From Ammoniphilus oxalaticus (GTDB lineage Bacteria > Bacillota > Bacilli > Aneurinibacillales > RAOX-1), in contig NZ_MCHY01000008.1 in NCBI RefSeq assembly GCF_003609605.1, positions 310,001-374,000 on the forward strand: a DNA stretch of 64,000 nucleotides. Reading direction: 5' to 3'. Under the pieces are notes generated by a model. The model did no database searches. It was not told the DNA's origin and saw only the letters and a program-made list of their open reading frames with translations. Position numbers and translations under genes: made by a program. Within the stretch, counting starts at the first letter, position 1; each line of letters starts with the position of its first letter. Positions 34,271 through 51,378 of the stretch are shown here, piece after piece.

Positions 34271-34425
34271 AACACCACCCTCGGGGTAGAAGGTGGTGTT
34301 TGGGGGAGGTTAAAAATTTCCGAAAAATAAAAAATAGGGTGGGGGAGTCCCCCAGGTTCATCACATTTGTGATGTGGGATAGTTCACTATCTATAATAAA
34401 ATAATATTATTATAGTGTCAATAGT
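34271..34425. repeat. Palindrome-rich intergenic region before the MidA-like gene
   Basis: Contains AACACCACC/GGTGGTGTT (34271-34300), TGGGGG-AGT-CCCCCA (34340-34354), the 16-base palindrome CATCACATTTGTGATG (34359-34374), ATAGT-TC-ACTAT (34379-34390) and an AT-rich imperfect palindrome to about 34425. No ORF or promoter can be assigned. Confidence 0.7.
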
Positions 34426-48219: not shown

Positions 48220-49479
48220 ATGACGATAGTAAAAGATAGTATAGTCAGCGATATGTCCCTTGCTCCAAACGGACATTTAAAAATAGACTGGGTTCAGGAG
48301 CATATGCCTGTTTTAAATCGAATTCGGGAGCAATTTGAACAAAACAAACCTTTTGCGGGATTAAAAGTAGCGATATCGCTTCACCTTGAGGCGAAAACAG
48401 CCTACTTAGCAAAAGTGGTCCAAGCCGGTGGGGCTGACGTAACGATTACGGGCAGTAATCCGTTGTCAACGCAAGATGACGTATGCGCGGCCCTTGTTGA
48501 GGATGGAATACGGGTATTTGCCAAATATAATCCATCCCCAGAAGAATACAAAAGCCATTTAATTTACACGTTGGAAACGAAGCCAGACTTAATTATTGAC
48601 GATGGCGGCGATCTTGTGACGATTTTGCACAGTGAAAGGGAGGATCTCGCTGGACAAGTTCGCGGCGGAGCGGAAGAAACAACAACAGGCATTCTTCGCT
48701 TGAAGGCGCTCGAGAAGTCTGGAAATTTAAAGTTTCCAATGATTGCTGTGAACGACGCGTTTTGTAAATATTTATTTGATAATCGGTATGGGACAGGCCA
48801 ATCAGTTTGGGATGGCATTAACAGAACGACAAACCTAGTCGTCGCTGGGAAGACAGTGGTTGTCGTTGGCTATGGATGGTGTGGCAAAGGTGTTGCGATG
48901 CGGGCCAAAGGACTTGGGGCCAAAGTGATTGTTACCGAGATTGATGCGATTAAAGCGGTAGAAGCGTATATGGATGGTTTTGAGGTGATGTCCATGAGCG
49001 AAGCGGCTAAACATGGCGACTATTTCGTAACCGTCACAGGTAATAAAGATGTGATCCGCGGCGAACATATGGAGCAAATGAAAGATGGGGCGATTTTATC
49101 CAATGCGGGCCACTTTGATGTGGAAATTAATAAAGTAGAGCTTGAAGCCCTTGCTGATTCTAAGCGAACAGTGCGGCAAGATATTGAAGAATACCAGTTG
49201 AAAGATGGACGGAAGATTTATTTGTTAGCAGAAGGCCGTTTAGTCAATTTAGCGGCGGGAGATGGTCATCCAGCTGAAATTATGGACATGACATTCGCTT
49301 TGCAGGCCGTTTCCTTGGCGCATGTGAATGAGAACTATGAACAGCTAGGAGCTAAGGTGGTGGATGTGCCGTATGAACTAGACGAAAATGTGGCCCGTCT
49401 AAAACTTGAAGCTTTAGGGATTGGAATCGACACATTGAGCGCCGAACAAAAGAGTTATTTGGATAGTTGGACAGAATAA
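48220..49479 (+). CDS. ahcY: S-adenosylhomocysteine hydrolase, archaeal/Thermotoga type
   Basis: Enzyme of 419 residues that splits S-adenosylhomocysteine (or S-inosylhomocysteine) to homocysteine and a nucleoside, using bound NAD. Motifs: [39 protein letters not shown], the NAD-binding [17 protein letters not shown] and the C-terminal [12 protein letters not shown]. The STQDD form and short N-terminus are those of archaea and Thermotoga. Unusual in Bacillales, which mostly use MtnN/LuxS. ATG at 48220 has AAGGGAGA upstream. Confidence 0.9.
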
Positions 49480-49481
49480 AA

Positions 49482-49515
49482 AAAATTCCTGCTACTTAGC
49501 AGGAATTTTTTTTTT
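49482..49515 (+). terminator. Rho-independent terminator before the dcw cluster
   Basis: AAAATTCCTGCTA / TAGCAGGAATTTT followed by a T-run of about ten. Confidence 0.92.
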
Positions 49516-49536
49516 ATTCACGAATAGTTAAGCAGA

Positions 49537-49583
49537 GTGGGGAATTGTGGGGCGTAAGGGGAGAATGGTGGTGGGAAGTGGGG
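49537..49583 (+). promoter_or_regulatory. Tandem MraZ-box array upstream of mraZ
   Basis: GTGGGG at 49537 and 49547, AGGGGA at 49557, GTGGTG at 49568 and GTGGGG at 49578. Spacing is 10, 10, 11 and 10 bases. This fits the known MraZ operator logic of direct repeats (TGGGN every 10 bp in E. coli). It lies in the 78 bases between the terminator and mraZ. No clear -10 was found. Confidence 0.75.
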
Positions 49584-49593
49584 TGAATAGACT

Positions 49594-50022
49594 GTGTTCA
49601 TGGGGGAATATCAGCATAGCATCGATGACAAGGGTCGATTAACGATCCCTGCCAAGTTCCGTGAATCGTTAGGCGCCGATTTTTTAATTACCCGTGGATT
49701 GGACAACTGTCTATTCGTATACCCAATGGAAGAGTGGAAAGCATTAGAAGGAAAGTTAAAAGCGCTCCCATTCACCCGAGCGGACGCGCGCGCATTCACA
49801 CGATTTTTCTTCTCAGGCGCTACTGAATGTGAATTGGACAAGCAGGGAAGGGTAAATATACCCGCGGCCTTGCGCCAACACGCCCGTTTAGAAAAGGACT
49901 GTGTTGTGATTGGCGTTTCCAGTCGCGTAGAAATATGGAGTCGCGCCCTATGGGAAGACTATGCCACTGATTCCGCTGAATCGTTTAGTGAGATTGCTGA
50001 AAAAATTGATTTTGACTTATAG
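49594..50022 (+). CDS. mraZ: Transcriptional regulator MraZ
   Basis: Protein of 142 residues, first gene of the division and cell wall cluster. Two MraZ/AbrB-like repeats: [20 protein letters not shown] in the first and [20 protein letters not shown] in the second. MraZ forms ring oligomers binding direct repeats upstream of its own gene. GTG at 49594 gives the usual MFMGEYQH start and follows GGGGTGA; the array of GTGGGG is immediately upstream. Confidence 0.95.
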
Positions 50023-50043: not shown

Positions 50044-50976
50044 TTGTTCCACCATGTCACAGTATTGAAAGAAGAAGCGGTGACCGCCCTTAATCTTAAA
50101 GCGGATGGCGTATATGTTGACTGCACACTTGGCGGGGCTGGTCATAGTCAGGTGATCGCATCCGCGTTATCCGCGCAAGGGCGATTGATTGCGATTGATC
50201 AGGACGATTGGGCTTTGCAACATGCTCAAAAAAAACTCGCTGATCACTTACATAAAGTTATATTAGTCAAAGGGAATTTTCGTTCGTTGCGTGACATTGC
50301 GCAGGAGCAAGGATGTGGGCAAGTAGACGGGGTTCTGTTTGATCTCGGTGTTTCATCTCCACAATTGGACGAAGGAGAACGGGGCTTTAGCTATCGGGCG
50401 GATGCCCCATTGGATATGAGAATGGATACGGATCAATCTCTGTCAGCTTATGAAATTGTTAATGAGTGGGATGGCAGTGACTTAGCTCGGATCATCTTTC
50501 AATATGGAGAGGAAAAATTTTCGCGGCAAATTACGCGCGAAATTTTAAAGGCGCGCGAAAACGGACCGATTGAGACAACGGAAGAATTAGTTGAATTAAT
50601 TAAAAAAGGGATTCCTGCCCCTGCGCGCAGGACGGGCGGTCATCCCGCGAAACGGACGTTCCAAGCGATTCGGATTGCGGTCAATGACGAGTTAGAAGCT
50701 TTCCGCGAAGCGCTTGAGGCGGCAATCCAAATACTAAAGCCCGGCGGTCGCGTTAGCGTGATCACGTTTCATTCTCTAGAAGATCGGATTTGCAAGCAAA
50801 TCTTTCAGCAATATAGCAAAGGGTGTGTGTGCCCGCGGGATTTTCCGCAGTGCGCTTGCGGGATTAAGCCCGTCATTAAAGTAGAGCGAAGGAAGCCAAT
50901 TTTACCAAGCGATCGGGAAGTAAAGGAAAACAATCGGGCTCGGTCCGCTAAATTAAGAGTCGCTGAAAAATTATAA
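50044..50976 (+). CDS. rsmH: 16S rRNA (cytosine-N4)-methyltransferase RsmH (MraW)
   Basis: Methyltransferase of 310 residues that modifies C1402 of 16S rRNA. SAM site [11 protein letters not shown], then [27 protein letters not shown], and the C-terminal ISVHSLEDRI-type segment ([13 protein letters not shown]). TTG start after GGGGTGAT. 21 bases after mraZ. Confidence 0.95.
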
Positions 50977-51003
50977 ACAGAACAAATGGAGGAGAGTCGG
51001 AAA

Positions 51004-51378
51004 GTGAATAGACATCAGTATGGTAATCTCGCGGTTCAATTGAACCAGCAGCAAGTTCAGCCAAGGGTGGAACAACCGAACCGAAAAGAACCAGTTTCCC
51101 CTTATGGAATCCCGATCGATGAAAAGCTGCTATATTTATTAAGTGTAATCGTGATCGTTTGTATTTCCGGCTTTATTTTATCCCGTTATGCCTTAATTTC
51201 ACAAATGAATTATGAGGTGGAAGGGATGAAGGTAGCGATCAATGAGACACAAGAGCAAAATTCAAGTTTAAAATTAAAAGTCGATGAACTTAGCAAACGG
51301 GAGCGTATTTTAAAGATTGCTCAAGAAGAGCTGGGAATGACTTCGAATAACAGTACGGTCCGCGTTTTAAAACCATAG
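51004..51378 (+). CDS. ftsL: Cell division protein FtsL
   Basis: Protein of 124 residues. Short cytosolic tail, one membrane helix (LLYLLSVIVIVCISGFILS) and a periplasmic coiled-coil (INETQEQNSSLKLKVDELSK). It binds DivIC and DivIB at the septum. GTG at 51004 follows GGAGGAGAG at 8 bases; the ATG at 50986 overlaps that site. Position between rsmH and pbpB is standard. Confidence 0.85.
   Translation: MNRHQYGNLAVQLNQQQVQPRVEQPNRKEPVSPYGIPIDEKLLYLLSVIVIVCISGFILSRYALISQMNYEVEGMKVAINETQEQNSSLKLKVDELSKRERILKIAQEELGMTSNNSTVRVLKP

Follow-up and report, generated by a model that had tools for sequence, protein, structure and literature searches.

A predicted MraZ operator at the head of a dcw cluster, in which a fourth repeat apparently substitutes for a decayed third

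The repressor gene mraZ stands at the head of one of the most conserved gene clusters in bacteria. Directly upstream of it, at mraZ1p, E. coli K-12 carries three TGGG repeats at 10-bp intervals. The MraZ protein of B. cenocepacia band-shifts a DNA fragment containing four 7-nt repeats that are separated by 3-nt spacers and lie over the transcription start (PMC7761207). In Mollicutes, the MraZ site is (AAAGTGKN3)3, and the HsdC site, in which the GTG spacing is 1 nt different, is also bound (PMC5282649); loss of mraZ in M. genitalium is followed by increased mraW and ftsZ (PMC8475190), and cryo-EM has captured M. genitalium MraZ on its own promoter and on a four-box promoter (9r4j and 9sz7). 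For S. aureus, a G-quadruplex (G4) described as conserved has been reported from PmraZ, in the stretch that separates the promoter from the gene (PMC11796246).

Here, we studied the region in front of mraZ in a stretch of 64,000 nucleotides (the window), in which the gene order runs from ahcY (identified by its match to TIGR00936) through a terminator and a G-rich leader into the start of the dcw cluster, with mraZ, rsmH, ftsL, and two penicillin-binding protein (PBP) genes. The features are given below; box scores come from a matrix derived from the boxes of relatives.

49478..49513, forward strand: intrinsic terminator after ahcY (16-bp stem, -18 kcal/mol, z -6.3)
49521..49525, forward strand: CGAAT, 16 nt before box 1 and possibly part of the promoter, from comparison with relatives
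49537..49542, forward strand: predicted MraZ box 1, GTGGGG (score 11.7), in a register shared with relatives
49547..49552, forward strand: predicted MraZ box 2, GTGGGG (score 9.0)
49557..49562, forward strand: decayed box 3, AGGGGA in place of GTGGnG (score -8.8)
49568..49573, forward strand: predicted MraZ box 4, GTGGTG, at +31 from box 1 (score 9.5)
49578..49586, forward strand: predicted MraZ box 5, GTGGGG, overlapping the mraZ Shine-Dalgarno sequence GGGGTGA (score 12.1)
49594..50022, forward strand: mraZ, repressor gene with a GTG start (TIGR00242)
50044..50976, forward strand: rsmH (mraW), which follows mraZ in the putatively controlled operon (TIGR00006)
50986-51378, downstream of rsmH: ftsL (TIGR02209)
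From 51404 and from 53760, after ftsL: two PBP genes (open reading frames)

The mraZ gene is intact, with a product that reaches 181 bits against TIGR00242 (cut-off 98), and it occurs in the same genome as the boxes. The predicted fold of this product matches solved MraZ structures from M. pneumoniae and M. genitalium at Z 18.9-20, among them the complexes with promoter DNA (9r4j and 9sz7), and its nearest named relatives are those of Ammoniphilus (80% identity). Its GTG start agrees with the MFMGE start found in nearly all relatives; an in-frame ATG follows six bases after it (49594-49602).

The initial annotation had described five tandem hexamers between the ahcY terminator and mraZ, and both the letters and the coordinates (starts at 49537, 49547, 49557, 49568, and 49578, hence steps of 10, 10, 11, and 10) are correct, as is the placement, with the hairpin at 49478-49513 and the TIGR00242 gene flanking the array, whose 3' end adjoins the mraZ start. 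The five hexamers are not equivalent, however: four are boxes by the matrix, with the consensus AAGTGGnG, the third (AGGGGA) is a box that has decayed, and the fifth also serves as the ribosome-binding site, where it is overlapped by the strongest anti-Shine-Dalgarno pairing (-6.6 kcal/mol). Reading the third hexamer one base later (49558) gives a weak score of 3.5. The intact boxes at 0, 10, 31, and 41 supply more than the minimum of three GTG(G) direct repeats expected of an MraZ operator, set on a helical frame of about 10 bp, and at 10.5 bp per turn they fall within about 35 degrees of one another; the initial annotation had put nearly all of the hexamers on a single helix face. When the 114-bp intergenic region was shuffled 20,000 times with its dinucleotide composition preserved, no shuffle had four GTGG on the frame 0/10/20/31/41, which was chosen post hoc from the relatives, and seven had three. 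The four-box pattern, with up to two mismatches allowed, occurs once in the 3.3-Mb genome, at the mraZ leader. The usual form of the element, three consecutive boxes at 10 bp, has no exact match in the window or in its own genome because box 3 is decayed.

As at E. coli mraZ1p, (G)TGGG repeats with an exact 10-bp step stand immediately before mraZ and are followed at once by the Shine-Dalgarno sequence, but there are only three boxes in E. coli, whereas here there are boxes at 0, 10, 31, and 41 in addition to the decayed one. Four GTG repeats in front of mraZ are likewise common to B. cenocepacia and the window; in the former, on a fragment that MraZ binds in band-shift (PMC7761207), the boxes are evenly spaced, whereas in the window they are arranged as two plus two with a 21-bp step between the pairs. 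The Mollicutes site has the same period and the same GTG core, with a solved protein-DNA complex, although its boxes are AT-rich and without G-runs and its hosts lack a wall (PMC5282649; PMC8475190; 9r4j; 9sz7). The S. aureus PmraZ motif is, as here, a G-rich stretch between the promoter and mraZ, and, to judge from its description (PMC11796246), it very probably belongs to the same class of element as the boxes, although it was read as a quadruplex there and conservation here follows the boxes. The predicted operator is of a known kind, in this case with a third repeat that has decayed and a fourth, additional one that apparently takes its place.

Comparison with relatives makes a stronger case against chance than the shuffles do. 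Conservation was followed in 199 distinct mraZ upstream regions, mostly from Bacilli with some from other classes of the phylum (198 of the arrays were scored), and in a larger set of 279, to which further families of the phylum contributed 80. The 199 regions hold 404 pairs of GTGG at exactly 10 bp, compared with 1.3 expected, and only two pairs at 9 bp and seven at 11 bp. Runs of at least three boxes at the exact 10-bp step occur in 196 of these regions and in no shuffled control, and in the larger set 267 of 279 regions have at least three GTGG boxes at this step, so that the alignment of relatives proposed in the initial annotation as a check did recover the 10-bp period. The consensus of the relatives is AAGTGG(T/G)G followed by an A-rich spacer, with GTGG near-invariant in three consecutive core boxes. 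In one relative, rsmH is seemingly split into two overlapping frames (G013:C5:98449-99377), which may be a frameshift or an assembly error. The three-box pattern is found approximately once per relative genome, in front of mraZ. Matches elsewhere in relatives (one each in five genomes, one of them lacking mraZ, and two in a sixth) were no more common than those of a reversed control pattern, and we therefore claim no wider MraZ regulon.

A box at +41 is present in 103 of 198 arrays and overlaps the Shine-Dalgarno sequence in 71 of them, as box 5 does here, and it could be argued on this basis that the G-rich stretch is mostly a leader or ribosome-binding sequence, or a site of regulation at the RNA level, with an incidental period. 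We regard this as extremely improbable: RNA structure is no stronger than in shuffles (z +0.7), Rfam yields sub-threshold matches only and no family at gathering score, and a 10-bp DNA period extending over 20-41 bp, together with the tie to mraZ, would be left unexplained.

The initial annotation noted that the G-runs could also form a G4, and in a rival reading a promoter or leader G4 would be what functions and is conserved here, as has been proposed for mraZ of S. aureus. The array does have the highest G4Hunter score of the window (2.0), a two-quartet motif is possible in 152 of 199 relatives, and the S. aureus region is reported to fold into a G4 in vitro and to respond to a ligand (PMC11796246). 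However, the canonical motif, with three or more G in each of four runs and loops of 1-7, occurs in only nine of 199 regions and is absent from the window array, which fits only the long-loop form; allowing loops up to 12 raises the count to 23 of 199. The near-invariant T of GTGG, and a box 1 that is mostly GTGGTG in relatives, interrupt the G-runs, and a G4 does not require an exact 10-bp phase. A G4 could form in the window under ligand, but conservation follows the boxes rather than the G-runs, and we consider a G4 very unlikely to be the conserved feature. Other high G4Hunter scores in the window are at 34283 (1.84), 42736 (1.64), and 53742 (1.64).

Natural knockouts link the array to MraZ. 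Of 398 genomes of the class, 77 lack mraZ. Within one genus of the same order, four genomes (G004, G006, G011, and G012) have both mraZ and boxes, whereas in two that lack mraZ (G005 and G008) the promoter retains 74-82% identity over 60 bp while the 24-bp array is down to 38-42%. In a third member of the genus, G009, a deletion that begins directly behind box 3 has reduced mraZ to a remnant, and three boxes remain. Class-wide, no box pair at 10 bp was found in 47 of 51 mraZ-less loci, although these 47 come from a few families and represent far fewer independent losses, and the absence of boxes carries less weight in some mraZ-less families (f17, f27, and f37), which may use a different promoter, than within the genus. 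All four loci in which two or three boxes persist (G009, G104, G141, and G048) have mraZ remnants, detected by tblastn in G009 and G104 and by eye, as a C-terminal piece, in G141 and G048, which belong to one genus and are at different stages of mraZ decay. Among relatives, the repeats persist where mraZ does and disappear where it is gone, so that over evolution the array depends on mraZ; its decay while the promoter persists also speaks against the G4. In Bacilli, mraZ has been or is being lost several times, in stages that range from a recent deletion to an operator that is completely erased.

The promoter referred to here was placed by comparison only, because a consensus sigma-70 scan of the window leader recognized no -35/-10 pair. 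In 71 relatives (4.2 in shuffles), a CGAAT lies no more than 35 nt before box 1, usually at a distance of 15-18 nt, and in one genus of order-level relatives TAGAAT takes its place before box 1 and is kept after mraZ loss. This CGAAT/TAGAAT site is probably a promoter element, and the CGAAT of the window may belong to its promoter.

The G-rich repeat is, with high confidence, predicted to be an MraZ operator through which MraZ would repress its own cell-division and cell-wall operon. The decay of the array without mraZ, the published binding, with band-shifts in other species (PMC7761207; PMC5282649), the de-repression in M. genitalium, and the cryo-EM structures together make this very likely; the suggestion of an MraZ operator in the initial annotation is thus supported, at the level of sequence, by the 10-bp period and by what happens to the array when mraZ is lost. 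MraZ made from the next gene would bind the GTGG boxes, nearly on one helix face, as a ring-shaped oligomer, and would block initiation or early elongation from a promoter immediately before box 1 (we infer where transcription starts), and so repress mraZ itself and the rsmH, ftsL, and pbp genes behind it. In the lineage of the window, contacts would most likely involve boxes 1 and 2 and boxes 4 and 5, with box 3 skipped or weakly used.

The broken box 3, otherwise near-invariant, could have weakened the predicted site, and one may ask whether the operator is in decay, with box 3 as the first casualty and MraZ control in the lineage already reduced. This reading overlaps the main explanation. 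Box 3 is intact in 267 of 279 arrays and broken here, and in the class mraZ is missing from some genomes and reduced to remnants in others; yet mraZ is intact here and far over its TIGR00242 cut-off, the four other boxes are intact, and loss of box 3 elsewhere also coincides with a box at +30/+31. Such a box is present in eight of the 12 arrays without an intact box 3 and in 18 of the 267 with one (Fisher p 7e-7, which overstates the evidence, as three of the eight are from one family, f113, and there are about six independent events). No box was found at +22 to +29 or at +32 to +33 in these 12 arrays. This suggests that box 3 has been replaced by the +30/+31 box rather than that the operator is decaying, and we consider ongoing decay unlikely.

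Among the first 198 scored arrays, the +31 box occurs only in the four genomes of the window's family, three of which have an intact box 3 as well as the +31 box; in the larger set it is found in further lineages, a few of these cases being due to a different choice of anchor. The simplest reading of this distribution is that the lineage of the window would have gained box 4 first and lost box 3 afterward. At least three of the four in-phase positions are occupied in 276 of 279 arrays, and MraZ operators might obey a "three of four in-phase boxes" rule, in which an interior box may be skipped if there is another two helical turns beyond its neighbor, so that boxes could turn over without loss of control, as with the gain at +31 and subsequent loss of box 3 in the lineage of the window. 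The helical positions of boxes 1, 2, 4, and 5, given above, agree with replacement. Steps that differ from 10 would be tolerable, since Mollicutes MraZ also binds the HsdC site with its altered GTG spacing (PMC5282649). We regard this rule as evenly balanced between being right and being wrong.

The natural knockouts separate promoter from operator. They and the pattern of conservation give reason to doubt that selection in front of mraZ acts to keep a conserved G-quadruplex, which in S. aureus has been proposed as a target for antibiotics. If true, the three-of-four rule would be a simple count of working sites that can be checked against new MraZ-DNA structures.
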